DNA of 64,000 nt from Vulcanimicrobiota bacterium. GTDB taxonomy: Bacteria; Vulcanimicrobiota; Vulcanimicrobiia; Vulcanimicrobiales; Vulcanimicrobiaceae. The notes below the pieces were generated by a model that saw nothing but the letters and a program-made list of their open reading frames with translations, was not told where the DNA came from and did no database searches. The DNA lies in contig PMSI01000001.1 in NCBI GenBank assembly GCA_003168375.1, forward strand, positions 1,116,001 to 1,180,000. Reading direction: 5' to 3'. The number at the start of each line of letters is the position of its first letter. Within the stretch, counting starts at the first letter, position 1. Made by a program: the position numbers and the translations under genes. Shown here in pieces: positions 35,599 to 44,622 of this stretch.

Positions 35599-35788
35599 CA
35601 ACGCCCGCCTGGTTGGCAAGAGAGCACGAGGGCCGGGAGGCGCAAATTCCCATCGGCTTCCGGTGGTTGTATCATTCTGTAGTCATCCCTAACTCCGCAG
35701 TCACCCTGAGCGGTGGGGAGGCCGCGGCTTCGGCCGAGCCCGAATTGTGCTGTTACCCGCGTATGGCGAACCCGCTCCGGAGATCTCT

Positions 35789-38700
35789 TTGCAAACGCTC
35801 GTGAACGTCACCCTGCCCGAGATGGGCGAGTCGGTCAGCGAAGGCTCGATCGTCGAGTGGCGCAAGAAGGTCGGTGACTGGGTCGACGAGGGCGACACCA
35901 TCGTCGACATCACGACCGACAAAGTCGACGTCGAGGTCCCCTCGACCGCGAGCGGCATCATCACGGCCCTCCACGGCGACGAAGGCGCCACCATCAACGT
36001 CGGCAGCGTCCTAGCCGAGATCGACACAACCGCCCGGAAAGCCGAAGCCGCCGCCGCCGGCCCGAAGCCCGAAGCCGCGGGTGCCGGCGCGTCCGCCGAT
36101 GTCACCCTGACCCTGTCGAAGGGCGAACCCACCCTCGTCACGCCGGCCAGCTACGGCGCCCCCGACGCGCCGACCCCGCCGCCCGAGCGACGCGAGACGA
36201 ACGGCAAGCCCTCCGGCGTCCTCTCCCACCACGCCCGCCGGCTGGTCGACCGCCTCCACATCGATCCCGCGAAGCTCACCGGCACCGGCCCCGACGGCCT
36301 GGTCCTGCGCGAAGACGTCGAAGCCGCCGTCGCCTCCGGCAAAATCGCCTTCACCGGTACCCTGGGCTCGGCGTCCTCAGATGTCACCCTGACCCTTCGA
36401 CAGGCTCAGGGTGACTCGAAGGGTGGCGTAGCGTACCCGCCGCTCCCGGCCGAAGCGAAGGTCACCGACCTCAAGGGCTCCGTCGCGACGCTGGCGTCGT
36501 ACATGGAGCAGTCGCTCTCGATCCCGGTCGCGACCTCGTTCCGCACGCTGCACGTCGGCACGATGGAGCAGCGCCGTGCCGAGCTGACCGCTGCGATGAA
36601 GCAGACCGGCCGCACCGAGAAGGTCTCGTTCACCCACCTCATCGCGTTCGCGCTCGTGCGCGCCGCGACGGAACAGCCCGCGATCACCGCGTCGTTCCGC
36701 CGCGTCGACGGCAAGCCGCAGAAGATCGAAGCCGGGATCCACCTCGGCCTCGCGGTCGACGCGCAGAAGAAAGACGGTTCGCGCTTCCTGGTCGTGCCGG
36801 TGCTGAAGAACGCCGGTGCGCTCGACTTCGCCGCGTTCCGCACCGCGTACGAAGAGCTGGTCGCCAAAGCGCGCGACAACAAGCTCTCGGTCGAAGAACA
36901 GACCGGCGCGTCGTTCACGCTGACCAACCCCGGCGGGATCGGCACCGTCGCCTCGGTTCCTCGCCTGATGGTCGGACAGGGCGCGATCATCGCCGCCGGT
37001 GCGATCGCGTTTCCGCCCGGCTTCGCGCACGCGTCGCGCTCGACGCTCGAACAGCTCGGCGTCGAGAAAGTGATGACGCTGACCTCGACGTACGATCACC
37101 GCGTCATCCAAGGCGCGCAGTCGGGCGAGTACCTGCGCCGCGTCGACGCGCTGCTCGGCGGCGCCGACGAGTTCTACGAGACGATCTTCTCGCACATGGG
37201 CGTGAGCGCCAACGTGCGCGGCGTCGCGACCAGCGCGAACGGTGCCGCGCCGACGCTGCGCGAACACGCGGAGCCGGTCACCGCCGACATCCCCGGCGTC
37301 CCGTCGGAAGAGATGCTGCGCGCGATTGCCGCCGGGATGGCGGTCGTCTCGGCGTATCGCCGCCACGGCCACCTCGGCGCGAACCTCGACCCGCTCGGCA
37401 CCAAGCCCCCGAACGATCCGTCGCTCGACCCCGCGACGTACAACCTCACGCCGGCGATGATGCAAGCGATCCCGGCGTCGATCCTCAACGTGAAGCTGCC
37501 GGGCCGCACGCTTGCCGACGTGCTGCCGAAGCTGCGCGAGACGTACAGCTCGACGATCGCCTACGAGATCGAGCACATCTCGAACACGCAGCAGCGCGAG
37601 TGGCTGCGCGACTACATCGAGACCGGCAAGCACAAGACGCCGCTCACGCCGCAGCGCCGCGTGCAGCTGCTCCAGCGCCTGACCAAGGTCGAGACGATGG
37701 AGCGCTATTTCCGCAAGCAGTTCATGTCGCAGAAGACCTTCTCGATCGAAGGGCTTGACGTGATGGTGCCGATGCTCGAGGAGACGATCTCGATGCTGGC
37801 CGAGGACGGCACGAAGACCGTCGTGCTCGGGATGGCGCATCGCGGCCGCCTCTCGACGATCGCGCACGTGGTGAACCGTCCGTACGAAGAGCTGCTCAAA
37901 GAGTTCGAGTCGGCCGCGCTGCGCGAAGAAGCACCGCAGGACGACGACGACGCGACCGGTGACGTGAAGTACCACCACGGCGCGCACGGCGAGTACGTGA
38001 CGCCGGTCGGGACGAAGATCACCGTCGAACTCGCCAGTAACCCCTCGCACCTGGAAGCGGTGGACGGCGTCGTCGAGGGGATGACGCGTTGCCTGCAGAC
38101 CGATCACAGCGTCAACCCCGCGACGCTCAACCACGAAGTCGCGGCGCCGATCCTCATCCACGGCGACGCCGCATTCGCCGCGCAAGGCGTGGTGGCGGAA
38201 GTCCTCAACCTGCAGGGTCTCGCCGGCTACAAGACCGGCGGCACGATTCACATCATCTCGAACAACCAAGTCGGTTTCACGACCGATCCCGGCGAAGCGC
38301 GCTCGACGCGCTACGCCTCGGACCTCGCGAAAGGCTACGACCTGCCGATCGTGCACGTCAACGCCGACGACGTCGACGCGTGCATCGCCGCGGTGCACCT
38401 CGCGATCGACTACCGCCGCAAGTTCGAGCGCGACGTGGTGGTCGACCTGATCGGTTACCGCCGCTTCGGCCACAACGAGCAGGACGAGCCCGCGTACACG
38501 CAGCCGCGCCAAACCGAGCTCATCAAGCAGCACCCAACCGTGCGCGAGCTCTATGCCGCGCAACTCGTTGCGCAGGGCGTGCTGACGAACGAACAGGTCA
38601 AGGAGCTGCAGGACACCGCGACGGCCCGCATCGCCGAGGCGCACAAGAGCGTGAAGTCCGGCGAGTACCAGGCGACAATGATCAACGCCGCCGTCTCCGG

Positions 38701-39898
38701 GAACGTCACGGCGCCCGCGCCCGACACACGCGTCGAAAAGAAGCGCCTGCTGAAATGGGCCGACGATGTGGTACGTGCCCCCGACGGTTTCGCGCTGAAC
38801 AAGAAGCTGGCGCAGCAGTTCCAGAAGCGCACGGCGGCGCTGCGCGAGAGCGGCGAAGTGGACTGGGGCCTGTCGGAAGCGCTCGCGTTCGCCTCGCTGC
38901 TGACCGAAGGGACGCCGATTCGCCTCACCGGCCAGGACACCGAGCGCGGCACGTTCTCGCACCGCCACGCAGCGCTGCACGACGCCCGCACGAACGCGAA
39001 GCACGTGCCGCTACAGCATCTTCAGGGTGCGAAGGCGTCGTTCGAGATCCACAACTCGCCGCTGAGCGAGTACGCGTGCCTCGGGTTCGAGTACGGCTAC
39101 GGCTTCGAAATCCCGAACGCGCTCGTGCTCTGGGAAGCCCAGTTCGGCGACTTCAACAACGGCGCACAGATCATCATCGACCAGTTCATCGCCGCAGGCG
39201 CCGCCAAGTGGGGCCAGCAGACGCGCCTGACGCTGCTGTTGCCGCACGGCTACGAAGGCGCGGGACCGGAACACTCGAGCGCGCGGCTCGAGCGGTTCTT
39301 GCAGCTGTCGGCTGAGGGCAATATCCGGGTCGCGAACTGCTCGACCGCGGCGCAGTACTTCCACTTGCTGCGCGCGCAGGCGAAGGCGAAGCAGGCCTAT
39401 CCGCTGGTGGTCATGACGCCGAAGTCGCTGCTGCGGAACCGGGCCGCGTACGGCACGATCGACGAACTCGCGAAGGGAACGTTCCGCGAACTCATCGACG
39501 ACCCGCGTTACGAGAAGGGCGACAAGTCCGGGATCGAGCGCGTGCTGCTCTGCAGCGGCCACATCTACTACGACCTGATCGCGAGCCCGCTCTACGAGCA
39601 GGCGAAGAAGACGGCGATCGTCCGCGTGGAGCTGCTCAGCCCGCTCCCCCACGCCGAGATCCTCCGCACGATCGCGAGCTACACGAGCGCGAAGGAAGTC
39701 ATCTGGGTCCAAGAAGAGCCGAAGAACATGGGCGCCCGAGCCCACGTCCGCCGTCGCCTCGTCGAGCGGCTCCCGAAGCCCCTAACCGACATCGACTACG
39801 TCGGCCGATCCTATCGCGCAAGCCCGTCCGAGGGCTACCCGGGGGCGCATGCAGTGGAGCAGGAGCGGATTGTTCGGGAAGCGCTTGCGGAGACGTAG
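35789..39898 (+). CDS. kgd: Single-chain 2-oxoglutarate dehydrogenase: lipoyl, PSBD, E2 and E1 domains fused
   Basis: This 1369-residue enzyme catalyses oxidative decarboxylation of 2-oxoglutarate to succinyl-CoA in the TCA cycle, with E3 (Lpd) from elsewhere. It has a lipoyl domain (about 4-80, lipoylated Lys45 in TTDKVDVEV), an E3-binding domain (SHHARRLVDRLHIDPAKL, about 145-185), an E2 acyltransferase (about 220-450, DHRVIQG) and a ThDP E1 (from about 490, GMAHRGRLSTIAHV and HIISNNQVGFTT). Actinobacterial KGD/OdhA has E2-E1 fused but lacks the lipoyl and PSBD domains. TTG 35789 is chosen, with GGAG 6 nt upstream; GTG 35801 is too far from it. Two linkers contain dispersed-repeat copies (36101-36123, 36383-36415). 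Confidence 0.9.
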   Translation: MQTLVNVTLPEMGESVSEGSIVEWRKKVGDWVDEGDTIVDITTDKVDVEVPSTASGIITALHGDEGATINVGSVLAEIDTTARKAEAAAAGPKPEAAGAGASADVTLTLSKGEPTLVTPASYGAPDAPTPPPERRETNGKPSGVLSHHARRLVDRLHIDPAKLTGTGPDGLVLREDVEAAVASGKIAFTGTLGSASSDVTLTLRQAQGDSKGGVAYPPLPAEAKVTDLKGSVATLASYMEQSLSIPVATSFRTLHVGTMEQRRAELTAAMKQTGRTEKVSFTHLIAFALVRAATEQPAITASFRRVDGKPQKIEAGIHLGLAVDAQKKDGSRFLVVPVLKNAGALDFAAFRTAYEELVAKARDNKLSVEEQTGASFTLTNPGGIGTVASVPRLMVGQGAIIAAGAIAFPPGFAHASRSTLEQLGVEKVMTLTSTYDHRVIQGAQSGEYLRRVDALLGGADEFYETIFSHMGVSANVRGVATSANGAAPTLREHAEPVTADIPGVPSEEMLRAIAAGMAVVSAYRRHGHLGANLDPLGTKPPNDPSLDPATYNLTPAMMQAIPASILNVKLPGRTLADVLPKLRETYSSTIAYEIEHISNTQQREWLRDYIETGKHKTPLTPQRRVQLLQRLTKVETMERYFRKQFMSQKTFSIEGLDVMVPMLEETISMLAEDGTKTVVLGMAHRGRLSTIAHVVNRPYEELLKEFESAALREEAPQDDDDATGDVKYHHGAHGEYVTPVGTKITVELASNPSHLEAVDGVVEGMTRCLQTDHSVNPATLNHEVAAPILIHGDAAFAAQGVVAEVLNLQGLAGYKTGGTIHIISNNQVGFTTDPGEARSTRYASDLAKGYDLPIVHVNADDVDACIAAVHLAIDYRRKFERDVVVDLIGYRRFGHNEQDEPAYTQPRQTELIKQHPTVRELYAAQLVAQGVLTNEQVKELQDTATARIAEAHKSVKSGEYQATMINAAVSGNVTAPAPDTRVEKKRLLKWADDVVRAPDGFALNKKLAQQFQKRTAALRESGEVDWGLSEALAFASLLTEGTPIRLTGQDTERGTFSHRHAALHDARTNAKHVPLQHLQGAKASFEIHNSPLSEYACLGFEYGYGFEIPNALVLWEAQFGDFNNGAQIIIDQFIAAGAAKWGQQTRLTLLLPHGYEGAGPEHSSARLERFLQLSAEGNIRVANCSTAAQYFHLLRAQAKAKQAYPLVVMTPKSLLRNRAAYGTIDELAKGTFRELIDDPRYEKGDKSGIERVLLCSGHIYYDLIASPLYEQAKKTAIVRVELLSPLPHAEILRTIASYTSAKEVIWVQEEPKNMGARAHVRRRLVERLPKPLTDIDYVGRSYRASPSEGYPGAHAVEQERIVREALAET
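36101..36123. repeat. Dispersed repeat copy inside the 2-oxoglutarate dehydrogenase gene (first)
   Basis: GTCACCCTGACCCTGTCGAAGGG lies in frame in the linker between the lipoyl and E3-binding domains, encoding DVTLTLSKG. It matches the intergenic element seen at 5391-5448 in reverse orientation. Confidence 0.8.
36383..36415. repeat. Inverted pair of dispersed repeats inside the 2-oxoglutarate dehydrogenase gene (second)
   Basis: GTCACCCTGA ... TCAGGGTGAC form a perfect 10-bp inverted repeat around CCCTTCGACAGGC, in frame between the E3-binding and E2 domains. It encodes DVTLTLRQAQGD. This is the same element as the intergenic copies, in an arrangement that can form a hairpin in mRNA. Confidence 0.85.
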
Positions 39899-39946: not shown

Positions 39947-40291
39947 TTAGGACTGTCGTCTGAGTTCACACTTTGCGGTCCTATTGACCGGTTTGATGTT
40001 TGCGACCAGGCGCGCGGCCGGGCCGTGTAATGCGTCGTACATGTCGACGGTCAGTTGCATGCGCAGCCATGACTCTGCCTTCATCCCGAGGGCTCGTTCG
40101 AGACGCAGCGCGGTATCCATCGTGATTGGCCGCTTGCCGTGGATGATCTCCGACAGTCGCGCCGCCGTCACGCCGATGCGCTTGGCAAAAGCGGCTTGCG
40201 TGATCTGAAGCGGCTCAAGGAACTCGCGCAACAGGATCTCCCCGGGTGGTACCGGGCGGCGATGCGTCGGGATGGTCAACGGGCGATTCAT
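39947..40291 (-). CDS. higA: HigA-family antitoxin (module 1)
   Basis: This 114-residue XRE-type antitoxin has the HigA signature: HRRPVPPGEILLREFLEPLQITQAAFAKRIGVTAARLSEIIHGKRPITMDTALRLERAL. It binds its toxin and, through the helix-turn-helix, the operator upstream of the operon. ATG 40291 lies 10 bp after the toxin stop. The toxin-first order is the usual HigBA layout. A related module is at 58335-59024. Confidence 0.9.
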   Translation of the reverse strand: MNRPLTIPTHRRPVPPGEILLREFLEPLQITQAAFAKRIGVTAARLSEIIHGKRPITMDTALRLERALGMKAESWLRMQLTVDMYDALHGPAARLVANIKPVNRTAKCELRRQS

Positions 40292-40301
40292 GCTGACGCT
40301 C

Positions 40302-40589
40302 CTAATGATAGTCGACGATTTCAACGTGGGTCGGTCCGGTGGCCGTCCAGCGGAAGCAGATCCGGTACTGATCGTTGATGCGAATTGAGTATTGCCCGCT
40401 CCGTGTACCGCGAAGACGCTCGAGACGATTCCCCGGCGGCATGCGCAACTGATCGAGGCTGACTGCGGCGTCCAACAGAGTTAGCTTGTCGAGCGCCTTC
40501 TGCCGAAGGGACGCTGGAACGAGCCGCCGCGCTCCCCCGGAATCGACGCCATTGTAGAGATCGGCGGTCGCGCGATCGGCGAAGTCCAA
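40302..40589 (-). CDS. higB: HigB-family RelE-like mRNA interferase toxin (module 1)
   Basis: This is a 95-residue RelE/HigB toxin with SLRQKALDKLTLLDAAVSLDQLRMPPGNRLERL and the C-terminal QYSIRINDQYRICFRW ... HVEIVDYH. These match the family's RNA-binding strands, and the basic Arg/Tyr residues of the ribosome-dependent site are present. The TTG at 40589 is only 7 nt from the predicted -10 box, so the transcript may be leaderless. The protein degrades mRNA when not neutralised by HigA. Confidence 0.85.
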   Translation of the reverse strand: MDFADRATADLYNGVDSGGARRLVPASLRQKALDKLTLLDAAVSLDQLRMPPGNRLERLRGTRSGQYSIRINDQYRICFRWTATGPTHVEIVDYH

Positions 40590-40804: not shown

Positions 40805-42832
40805 CTACGCCACGTTTTCCAACGACAACGACGGCATTCCAGCATCCACGACGTCGCCGAACTCTGCGGCCGACATTGCGGCGCCGAAGTAGGTGCCTTG
40901 TGCGGCGTCGCACTGGAGGGGGGCAAGCGCTGCTCGTTGTGCTTCGTTTTCGACGCCGGCTGCGATGACGCGTGCGTTGAGGCCGTGTACGACGTGCACG
41001 ATTGCCGAGGTGATGACTCTGTCGGATTCGTTCGCCAGGAAACCCCGAACGAGCGACCGATCCAGCTTCACCGTGTCGAACTCGCACGACCGGAGAACCG
41101 CTAGTGCGTTGAAGCCGGTTCCGAAATTGCCGAGGGTCACGCGAACGCCGAGCGCGCGTACCTCGCGAATCTTGCGGGCGGCGTCGCGAAGATCGCCTTG
41201 TGCGATCTCGGTCAGCACGAGTTCCAGCATCGTCGGGTCGAGGCCGGCATCCTCGAACGCCGACCGGACGCCCTTGGTGAACTCGGGATGCGCGATCGAG
41301 TGCGTGGAGACGTTGACCGCGACGGTCAGCGGACGGCCCTCGCGCGCCCACGCGGCATTCTGCCGGCACGCTTCGCGCAGCACGAAGGTGTCGAGCGGGA
41401 CGACAAGGCCGGTCTGTTCCGCCATCGGGATGAATGCCGACGCCGTGAGCACTGTGTCCCAGCGCGGCCACCGCGCGAGCGCTTCGGTGCCGATGATGCG
41501 GCCGTCGATCGCGACGAGCGGCACGTAGTGAACGAGAAGCTCGTCGTTGCTCAGCGCGTTGCGCAGGTCGGTCTCGAGATTGAACTGGCGCACCAACGAG
41601 TCGTGCATCGACGCCTCGAAGAGGCGGTACGAACCGGACTGAAGCCGTTTCGCCTGATACATCGCGGTGTCGGCGTTGCGCAGCAGCGTCTCGCCGTCGG
41701 TGCCGTCGACCGGGAAGCGGGCGACGCCGATGCTGAGGCTCATGCACAGCGTGCGGCCACCCACCTGGAGGGGCTCGCGAAAGGCGTCGACGATCCGCTG
41801 GGCGGCCGCGGCCGCATCGACGGTGATCGGATCTTCGAGCAGGATCACGAACTCGTCGCCGCCGGTGCGCGCCACCTCGTCCTCCGCCCGCGTCAACGCG
41901 CGTAGGCGCTGCGCGACGCTCTGTAGGAGCAGGTCGCCCACCGAGTGGCCCAGCGTGTCGTTGATCTCTTTGAAACCGTCGAGGTCGATGAAGAGGATCG
42001 CCAGCTCTGACTTGCGCCACTTGGCCGCGGAGCACGCGGCGCCGAGCCGCTCGTTCAAGAGCATTCGGTTCGCCAGGCCCGTGAGCGCATCGGACCGGGC
42101 GCTGAGAGCGAGCCGCTCGGAAGCCTCTTTGCGCTCCGTGATGTCGAGGCACGTCCCTACGAGCCGGACCGGCTTCCCGGCACTGTCGTCCTCGCGCGCG
42201 ACGAGCAGCTCCAACCAATGCATGGTCTTGTCGCTGCGGATGCTGCGGTACTCGATGCGGTTCACGGTGCCCGTGTTGATGGTGTGGTTGAGATCTGCGA
42301 GGACGCGCGCACGATCCTCGGGATGCACGTGCCGTTTGACGATGTCGTAGCCTGATCCCGGAGACGTCGCGTTCGGCGGCTTCGGAACGCGGGCTTGCAC
42401 CCACATTTCGTCCGACCAGGTGATCACGTCTGTCGCCAAGTCGGTCGACCAGTGACCGAAATTGACGAGCCGGTGCACGCGCGAGAGGGCACTGGCCGAG
42501 TCATGTCGCACTCGCTCAGCTCGGACGCGCTCCGTCGCATCGCTCGTGAGCAGAATCGATGCCGGGACGCCATCCCAGGTGACGTCGAACACCGTCTCGT
42601 CGGCATCGAATTCCGACCCGTCCTTGCGACGATGCACCGTGGTCGTCGTGCTTCGCGCATCGGCAGCGACGCGGTCCGTGACCGACGACGCGTGGGCCGG
42701 CGCGCAGAAGCTCTCCGCAGGCTGCCCGATGATCTCCACGCGAGAATAGCCATAGGTGCTCAGGGCGGCCTCGTTGACCCAGATGCAGCGGTGGCTCGCT
42801 GAGTTGAAGACGATGACGGAATTGCCGTTCAC
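40805..42832 (-). CDS. PAS-GGDEF-EAL protein, predicted diguanylate cyclase (degenerate EAL)
   Basis: This is a 675-residue cytoplasmic protein with an N-terminal PAS domain (about 10-100), a second PAS/PAC domain (about 120-230, ending GTCLDITERK), GGDEF (about 240-400) and EAL (about 410-660). The GGDEF is intact: FIDLDGFKEIND supplies the metal Asp, RTGGDEF the active loop, and RAED five residues before it an RxxD inhibitory site. The EAL keeps EALARW but the metal-binding DDFGTGY is changed to GNFGTGF and the late AEGVE Glu is replaced (AAGVE). It is therefore predicted to synthesise c-di-GMP only. It overlaps the upstream gene by GTGA. Confidence 0.88.
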   Translation of the reverse strand: MNGNSVIVFNSASHRCIWVNEAALSTYGYSRVEIIGQPAESFCAPAHASSVTDRVAADARSTTTTVHRRKDGSEFDADETVFDVTWDGVPASILLTSDATERVRAERVRHDSASALSRVHRLVNFGHWSTDLATDVITWSDEMWVQARVPKPPNATSPGSGYDIVKRHVHPEDRARVLADLNHTINTGTVNRIEYRSIRSDKTMHWLELLVAREDDSAGKPVRLVGTCLDITERKEASERLALSARSDALTGLANRMLLNERLGAACSAAKWRKSELAILFIDLDGFKEINDTLGHSVGDLLLQSVAQRLRALTRAEDEVARTGGDEFVILLEDPITVDAAAAAQRIVDAFREPLQVGGRTLCMSLSIGVARFPVDGTDGETLLRNADTAMYQAKRLQSGSYRLFEASMHDSLVRQFNLETDLRNALSNDELLVHYVPLVAIDGRIIGTEALARWPRWDTVLTASAFIPMAEQTGLVVPLDTFVLREACRQNAAWAREGRPLTVAVNVSTHSIAHPEFTKGVRSAFEDAGLDPTMLELVLTEIAQGDLRDAARKIREVRALGVRVTLGNFGTGFNALAVLRSCEFDTVKLDRSLVRGFLANESDRVITSAIVHVVHGLNARVIAAGVENEAQRAALAPLQCDAAQGTYFGAAMSAAEFGDVVDAGMPSLSLENVA

Positions 42833-44622
42833 GCGACTCTCCCGAGGGTGCCGGGGAGGATCGGAACGCCGATCAGCCGCTCGAATTCGGTCGGCGAAAG
42901 CGCCGCGCCGAAAAGATAGCCTTGCGCATCATCGCAATGCAGGTCCGCCAGCGTTGCTCGCTGCTGTTCGGTCTCGACCCCTTCCGCGACGACCCGCGCG
43001 CCGAGGCGATGCGCCGCGAAGATCACCGCCTCGGCGATGACCGAATCAGCCTGATGCGTCACGATATCGCTCACGAACGAGCGGTCGAGCTTCAACGTAT
43101 CGAAGCCGCACGTGCGCAGCACCGAGAGTGAGTTGTACCCCGTCCCGAAATCGTCGAGGGCGACCCCGATGCCGAGCGCGCGTACCTCGGCGACTTTGCG
43201 CGCCGTTCCGGTGAGGTCGGCTTGCAGCGCGCTCTCGGTGAGTTCGAGCTCCAGCAGTGCCGGATCGAGACCGGATTCGCTCAGCGCGGCGCGGACACTC
43301 TCGATGAAATCCGGTCTGGCGATGCTGTGCGCCGACACGTTGACGGCGACGCGCAGCCGTTGCCCTCGCCGCTGCCAGAGCGCATTCTGGCGGCACGCCT
43401 CGGTGAGCACGAACGCGTCGAGCTGAGCGATGAGACCCGTCTCTTCGGCGACCGGGATGAAGTCCGCGGCGCTGAACAGCAGACCGTTTCTCGGCCAGCG
43501 AACGAGCGCTTCGGAACCGATGAGGTGTCCGTCGATCGTGACGACGGGCTGATAGTGGACGAGCAGGTCGCGGCGCTGGAGCGCGCGGCGCAACCCGGAT
43601 TCGAGGCTGAAGCGGCGCACTGCAGCCGCGTGCATCGATTCTTCGAAGAAGCGATACGAACCGCGGTCGGAACGCTTCGCATGATACATTGCAGTATCGG
43701 CATTGCGGAGGAGCGAGTCGGTATCGGTGCCGTCTTGGGAATAGCAGGCGATCCCGATCGTCACGCTCACGCTGATGTCGCGGATGCCGACGCGCAGCGG
43801 CACGGCGAAGGCGTTGATGATCCTGCACGCTGCCGCCGCCGCGTCGGTCGCGGTCCCGCGGTCGAGCACGATTGCGAACTCGTCGCTTCCGCTGCGCGCC
43901 ACGAGATCGGCCATCCCCGTGAGGCTCCGCAGACGCATCGCGGCCGCTTGGAGAACCAAATCGCCCGTCGCGTGTCCTAGCGTGTCGTTGATCCGCTTGA
44001 AACCGTCGAGACCGAGAAATAGGATGGCGGCTTTGGAGTCCTGACGGTGCGCCTCGAAGCAGACGGCCGACAGCCGTTCATGGAGCTGCATCCGGTTTGC
44101 GAGTCCGGTGAGCATGTCGTGCCGAGCATTGAAGTCGAGCAGCTCCACCGCGCTCTTGCGCTCCGTAATGTCGACGACGGTCCCAACGATGCGAATCGGT
44201 TTGCCGCTGGCGTCGTCCTCACGCGCGGCGATCATCCCCACCCAGCGGATCGGCTCGCTGCCGCGGATGGTGCGATATTCGATGTGCCGCACGCGCCCCG
44301 TCTCCAAGACGGCCCTGAGATCGGCCAGGACGCGCTCCTGATCGTCGGGGTGCGCATGACAGCGGATCGCCGCCGCGCCGCGCCCGGGAGACGAATCGGC
44401 CGGTATCGGCATGCGCGCCAACGCAAACAACTCGTCCGACCAGGTCGTTCGGCCCGTCGCGAGATCGACCCAATAGTGTCCGAGGTCAATGAGGCGGTGG
44501 ACGCGCGAGTGCGCGCTGAGCGATGCGCGCAGCTCGTCGACGATCGTGACAGGATCAGGCTGAGCGACGAATGGAATCTCGCCGCGCAGCGTCCGGCCGC
44601 TCGCTATAATCGTGTCGGGCAC
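42829..44622 (-). CDS. PAS-GGDEF-EAL protein, predicted c-di-GMP phosphodiesterase (degenerate GGDEF)
   Basis: This is a 597-residue protein with one PAS/PAC domain (about 40-160, ending GTVVDITERK), then GGDEF and EAL. Here the GGDEF half is damaged: the metal Asp of the DLDGFK motif is Gly (FLGLDGFK), the signature is GSDEF, and the RxxD inhibitory site is missing (GMAD). The EAL half is complete: EALVRW, the Asn of NVSAHS, Glu in LELELTES, DDFGTGYN, KLDRSF and AEGVETEQQ. It is predicted to break down c-di-GMP. It is the first gene of the pair, and the synthase gene follows with a 4-nt GTGA overlap. Confidence 0.88.
   Translation of the reverse strand: MPDTIIASGRTLRGEIPFVAQPDPVTIVDELRASLSAHSRVHRLIDLGHYWVDLATGRTTWSDELFALARMPIPADSSPGRGAAAIRCHAHPDDQERVLADLRAVLETGRVRHIEYRTIRGSEPIRWVGMIAAREDDASGKPIRIVGTVVDITERKSAVELLDFNARHDMLTGLANRMQLHERLSAVCFEAHRQDSKAAILFLGLDGFKRINDTLGHATGDLVLQAAAMRLRSLTGMADLVARSGSDEFAIVLDRGTATDAAAAACRIINAFAVPLRVGIRDISVSVTIGIACYSQDGTDTDSLLRNADTAMYHAKRSDRGSYRFFEESMHAAAVRRFSLESGLRRALQRRDLLVHYQPVVTIDGHLIGSEALVRWPRNGLLFSAADFIPVAEETGLIAQLDAFVLTEACRQNALWQRRGQRLRVAVNVSAHSIARPDFIESVRAALSESGLDPALLELELTESALQADLTGTARKVAEVRALGIGVALDDFGTGYNSLSVLRTCGFDTLKLDRSFVSDIVTHQADSVIAEAVIFAAHRLGARVVAEGVETEQQRATLADLHCDDAQGYLFGAALSPTEFERLIGVPILPGTLGRVA

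Follow-up and report, generated by a model that had tools for sequence, protein, structure and literature searches.

Overlapping GGDEF-EAL genes with reciprocal losses of catalytic residues in a WPS-2 bacterium point to a division of labor between tandem duplicates

Why so many bacteria combine make-and-break domains in one protein, and what the origin of single-function enzymes from such proteins is, tends to be discussed on the basis of individual degenerate proteins. Two adjacent genes in a 64,000-nucleotide stretch of DNA from a WPS-2 bacterium (the window) raise the question of whether such an origin can instead be followed through a pair of sister proteins. These genes, here P1 and P2, both encode hybrid proteins with the GGDEF and EAL domains of cyclic di-GMP (c-di-GMP) synthesis and breakdown (Pfam E-values 1e-42 to 1e-64). 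The source genome has 21 GGDEF matches, and ordinary annotation would show P1 and P2 as just two generic GGDEF/EAL proteins. An initial annotation of this DNA had noted their GTGA overlap, had described a broken GGDEF domain in P1 and a broken EAL domain in P2, and had proposed that a duplication was followed by division of labor. The two open reading frames, their strand and the overlap were confirmed by translation and direct reading (Table 1), and we examined what the residues, relatives and evolutionary rates of the pair say about the rest.

In the GGDEF domain of P1 the metal ligand is lost, the motif reading FLGLDGFK with glycine where aspartate is expected (D204G), at a position nearly invariant among relatives. 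We take D204, by its place in the motif, to be equivalent to metal-binding aspartates such as D287 of YfiN. The latter is the metal-binding residue of the YfiN GGDEF domain (PMC7825114). P1 further reads GSDEF (S246) where GGDEF is expected, and the I-site arginine of the RxxD motif is gone (GMAD, R236G); hence the signature of active cyclases, namely the metal aspartate plus GG(D/E)EF, is absent. The EAL domain of P1 is canonical (QENEDDKEQ) at all nine catalytic positions, which in RocR numbering are Q161, E175, N233, E265, D295, D296, K316, E352 and Q372. P2 is the mirror image, with all the cyclase motifs present (FIDLDGFK, RAED and GGDEF), including the active-cyclase signature, and an EAL domain that reads VENVGNKAQ at the nine positions (Q437V, E539V, D568G, D569N and E625A). 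The last of these substitutions falls in EGVE and removes the catalytic base, the absence of which has been used as a criterion for inactive EAL domains (PMC12900916), and the erosion of this domain places it within the top 2-3% of the GGDEF-EAL stretches compared. Thus, the breakages first described (GLDGFK, GSDEF and no RxxD in P1; GNFGTGF and AAGVE in P2) are all present, with Q437V and E539V to be added to the list. The domain order is likewise common to both proteins by Pfam, as had been stated, except that P1 is missing the first PAS domain that P2 has. On the basis of these residues, P1 is predicted to be a dedicated c-di-GMP phosphodiesterase and P2 a dedicated diguanylate cyclase with a product-inhibition site. 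The AlphaFold2 model of P1 has a predicted local distance difference test score of 84, and its closest solved folds include PdeA, MorA, MucR and PA0575; PA0575 and MorA are the nearest of the solved structures, and those of DosP also match. In the model of P2 the GGDEF and EAL domains are confident and the first PAS domain is poorly modeled. What the models tell us is that the GGDEF-EAL regions of the two proteins retain normal folds.

P1 and P2 are 57% identical, with PAS2, GGDEF and EAL common to both window copies at about 52-59%. This is high, because paralogous catalytic domains inside one genome are reported to be usually less than 35% identical (PMC10333796). In a search that covered the genus (11 genomes) and the family (99), only three genomes carried the pair: the source genome, G001 (locus L111), and a WPS-2 metagenome-assembled genome (MAG), L031, which we treat as one genome with G004 (contig 54) and which was the sole further carrier in a scan of species genomes. 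An M13 peptidase adjoins the pair in the window, and this synteny is kept in L031. When 140 GGDEF-EAL stretches, gathered by similarity from relatives and many phyla, are placed in a tree, the three pairs form one clade with support of 100, and its six proteins split into a P1 clade (support 92) and a P2 clade (support 99); a tree of the EAL domain alone gives these clades supports of 96/97 and 97/98, respectively. As each of the two clades holds one copy from each of the three species, there was a single duplication before these species separated. It follows that the duplication, with a synonymous divergence (dS) of about 0.9-1.2, is not very recent: the proteins are sisters as initially suggested, but not recent ones. 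An origin of P1 and P2 as unrelated hybrids brought together is ruled out by their position in the tree as sister copies, and a P2 fused to P1 through a frameshift is ruled out by the clean stop and start, with the overlap kept in three species.

The orthologous pairs bear on when the sites were lost. In G001 both copies have two PAS domains, FxDxDxFK, RxxD, GGDEF and an EAL domain canonical at each of the nine positions, and the GTG start of the window P1 lines up with the ATG (MPD...) of its G001 orthologue, which retains the first PAS domain. Since both sites are intact in both G001 copies, the losses in the window and L031 came later than the duplication; retention of the signature residues in all four G001 domains likewise points to a pair of apparently bifunctional enzymes that was secondarily split. 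L031 shows the same losses as the window, except that the RxxD motif of P1 is retained (RAAD) and that P2 has HYEP in place of the window HYVP. The simplest history suggested by these sequences is that an intact hybrid was duplicated, that EAL residues of P2 and GGDEF residues of P1 were lost in the lineage leading to the window and L031, and that loss of the P1 I-site arginine was a later step in the window alone.

Evolutionary rates, estimated from branch lengths on a fixed topology and from pairwise difference counts, cross exactly as a division of labor predicts. On the branch where the losses occurred, the GGDEF domain of P1 changed about three times faster than its EAL domain (0.294 versus 0.104), and the EAL domain of P2 about nine times faster than its GGDEF domain (0.259 versus 0.028). 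The differences from G001 in the GGDEF and EAL domains number 66:60 for P1 and 24:84 for P2 in the window (Fisher p 2e-6), and 69:54 and 18:77 in L031 (Fisher p 2e-8), in tests that treat sites as independent. Between the split lineage and G001, the P1 EAL and P2 GGDEF domains are 77-79% and 85-89% identical, with ratios of nonsynonymous to synonymous change (omega) of 0.19-0.22 and 0.13-0.15, and the P1 GGDEF and P2 EAL domains are 58-60% and 67-70% identical, with omega of 0.41-0.43 and 0.41-0.47. After the losses, in the comparison of the window with L031, omega is 0.20 (0.08-0.47) for the P1 GGDEF domain and 0.29 (0.19-0.43) for the P2 EAL domain, values indistinguishable from that of the live P2 GGDEF domain (0.25). 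The dead domains are therefore under purifying selection and must serve some purpose, even if it is no more than folding and dimerization. The proposal of duplication and subsequent division of labor thus gains from the sister relationship, the intact G001 pair and the crossed rates.

Table 1. Features of the P1/P2 locus, in coordinates of the window
Feature	Position	Strand	Basis and remarks
P1, PAS-GGDEF-EAL, 597 aa	42829..44622	-	Open reading frame, translation, Pfam; predicted dedicated c-di-GMP phosphodiesterase
P1 GGDEF domain, degenerate, residues 166-320	43663..44127	-	Pfam, motif comparison
P1 EAL domain, intact, residues 344-572	42907..43593	-	Pfam, catalytic positions
Four-base overlap GTGA, P1 stop/P2 start	42829..42832	-	Direct read; kept in L031 (GTGA) and G001 (GTGATG)
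P2, PAS-PAS-GGDEF-EAL, 675 aa	40805..42832	-	Open reading frame, translation, Pfam; predicted dedicated diguanylate cyclase
P2 GGDEF domain, intact with I-site RAED, residues 246-397	41642..42097	-	Pfam, motifs
P2 EAL domain, degenerate, residues 422-650	40883..41569	-	Pfam, motif comparison
Tract of about 800 bp, near-identical in L031	43918..44717		Window/L031 identity 98-100%, flanks 84-90%

Several observations weigh against this history or narrow it. The loss of catalysis in the degenerate domains, and its retention in the intact ones, would follow from residues; the pair is known from three genomes, some of them drafts; and a tree of the GGDEF domain alone supports the P1 clade weakly (34/65). 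The P1 GGDEF domain of G001, with its signatures intact, sits on a long branch (0.39) and has lost the conserved AD of ADxAMYxAK (A146S, D147A). Being fast-evolving and devoid of this AD, the G001 P1 cyclase may already be weakened, and the G001 pair may fall short of full bifunctionality. Finally, the first 235 codons of P1 lie in a tract (about 5762-6562 in L031) that runs from the sequence upstream of the gene through its start, the scar of the PAS deletion and the remaining PAS domain into the early GGDEF domain with G204. Window-L031 dS is about 0.01 inside the tract, 0.3-0.5 in the remainder of P1, and 0.22-0.26 in the adjacent M13 peptidase and PQQ genes. The tract looks like a recent exchange between species or an artefact of MAG assembly; with such an exchange, G204 and the PAS deletion may have originated in only one of the lineages, from which the other received them, and their sharing is not independent evidence of age. 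Part of P1's loss would then have spread, or been homogenized, via recombination between species. S246, which has differing codons on either side (245 and 250), is probably just outside the tract, and all the P2 losses fall outside it.

We also asked how unusual such a pair is, and the comparison speaks against coincidence. Among the 140 GGDEF-EAL stretches, which serve as a yardstick rather than a census, both sites are intact in 110, only the EAL site is lost in 15, only the GGDEF site in 14, and both in one. None of the 11 other adjacent same-strand GGDEF-EAL pairs in the examined loci (two in L044, three in L121, and one each in L049, L071, L112, L113, L141 and L142; not all independent) shows complementary loss, and no tandem GGDEF-EAL pair described as complementary turned up in a non-exhaustive search of the open-licence literature. 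Within the genus, L112, L113 and L121 (G000 C7, G004 C307) hold further tandem pairs and a four-gene array; several of these pairs have partial EAL decay in one partner (D296G/E352G, E352T, D296N, E352G) with both GGDEF domains intact. A Calditrichia MAG (L044, 5548-10964) has three GGDEF-EAL genes in a row, of which the middle one is degenerate twice (ERDEF; EESESSKEQ) and the outer two are intact.

We consider it probable that a bifunctional enzyme was duplicated in tandem and that the copies then divided its labor, P1 serving as phosphodiesterase and P2 as cyclase. Under this scenario, a PAS-PAS-GGDEF-EAL gene with both sites intact would have been duplicated in an ancestor common to three species of a single WPS-2 genus. 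In the window/L031 lineage P1 would then have lost its first PAS domain and cyclase site to become a phosphodiesterase, and P2 its EAL site to become a cyclase bearing a site for product inhibition; the dead domains would have stayed on as structural or regulatory modules. Translation coupled through GTGA would make the opposing enzymes together with matched dosage, the overlap suggesting a fixed P1:P2 ratio, and synthesis and breakdown may have been placed under different sensor inputs (two PAS domains versus one) and hence be sensed separately by the two copies. If the pair were simply decaying, with a redundant copy randomly shedding sites on its way to disappearance and the losses complementary by chance, the 29 of 140 stretches with single-site loss and the EAL decay seen in one partner of other tandem pairs of the genus would be in keeping with it. 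We regard this as highly improbable, given that the complementarity is maintained in two species, that the intact domains are slow (omega 0.13-0.19), that the dead ones, with omega of 0.20-0.29, contain no stop or frameshift, and that none of the 11 other pairs is complementary.

A different use of the same parts is possible, if doubtful: P1 and P2 may form one switch, in which a heterodimer assembles through PAS2 and the linker helix, the dead P1 GGDEF domain holds the P2 cyclase off, the dead P2 EAL domain modulates the P1 EAL domain, and a signal picks either the heterodimer (breakdown) or the P2 homodimer (synthesis). Cyclase catalysis requires two GTP-loaded GGDEF domains (PMC7825114), so that P2 homodimers would be cyclases and a P1:P2 heterodimer cyclase-dead; further, hetero-contacts that link intact GGDEF domains with degenerate ones have been described in E. 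coli (PMC5635695), a DosC-DosP complex is known (PMC5549716), and P1 and P2 share three domains and overlap in their reading frames. Purifying selection on the dead domains also fits such a switch, but fold and homodimer stability explain it equally well, and two separate enzymes with matched dosage are preferred over one heteromeric switch. It is rather unlikely that P1 and P2 represent a split bifunctional enzyme operating as an obligate heteromeric complex, with each copy carrying the other's dead domain for regulatory purposes; were this true, an in-chain GGDEF-EAL balance would have become one between two chains that are translated together and have sensor inputs of their own, and the G001 pair would be the living pre-split state, with each splitting step open to testing. 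Compatible with the division of labor, such that both can hold, is the conversion of the P2 EAL domain from an idle remnant to a c-di-GMP receptor of the FimX/LapD type, acting in feedback on a target or the P2 cyclase, which we nonetheless think unlikely. The ExLxR motif, reported to decide whether inactive EAL domains bind c-di-GMP (PMC10333796), is still present in the window P2 (E450, L452, R454), as are the N, K and Q catalytic positions, and its fold is intact (Z 26-30 to the FimX and LapD EAL structures) and constrained (omega 0.29); however, the L031 motif is ExVxR, Q437 and D568/D569 are gone, and active enzymes are at least as similar in fold as FimX and LapD.

In the neighborhood of the pair, a HigB-like toxin (PF05015) and a helix-turn-helix antitoxin lie at 39947-40589, between P2 and a kgd-like gene. 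L031 lacks this module at the corresponding position, and a close homologue of the antitoxin adjoins an M13 peptidase in G001 (L111, 1540-1947); thus, the module appears to move. The kgd-like gene (35747-39898), to judge from translation alone, encodes a 1383 aa protein combining E2-like (lipoyl and acyltransferase) and 2-oxoglutarate dehydrogenase/decarboxylase E1 regions, like the actinobacterial Kgd.

Each protein of the pair alone is of a known kind, and cyclase-phosphodiesterase partners are also known; the unusual part is a sister pair with reciprocal loss together with an extant intact pair. The hybrids PA0575/RmcA and MorA have, like P1, an intact EAL domain, and Streptomyces CdgC has, like P2, an intact GGDEF domain and a degenerate EAL domain, and is reported to be an active cyclase in vitro (PMC6205966). 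However, these are single genes rather than a complementary sister pair, and the GGDEF domain of PA0575 still binds GTP and metal (PMC7825114), unlike that of P1 which is without the metal aspartate. DosC-DosP (DgcO-PdeO) of E. coli resembles the P1/P2 pair in joining an antagonistic cyclase with a PAS-containing GGDEF-EAL phosphodiesterase. These two are encoded by an operon, and the DosP GGDEF domain is degenerate. DosC and DosP form a complex and jointly control c-di-GMP (PMC5549716, PMC5635695). Yet DosC is a globin-coupled GGDEF protein without an EAL domain and is not a sister of DosP, whereas P2 is a PAS-PAS-GGDEF-EAL protein, and P1 and P2 both come from one protein of that architecture, each retaining the other's dead domain. 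The nearest evolutionary parallel is the pair RelA and SpoT, which specialized after duplication and are not known to be a translationally coupled tandem pair. They are paralogues derived by duplication of the bifunctional Rel, a second-messenger synthetase and hydrolase (PMC6416229), and differ from P1 and P2 in their messenger, (p)ppGpp, and in their folds. As the presumed pre-split pair (G001), the split pairs (window and L031) and the residues involved all exist today and selection on them is crossed, it is possible to measure in what order the losses came and what each one did, and P1 and P2 would constitute a c-di-GMP parallel to the split of Rel into RelA and SpoT.

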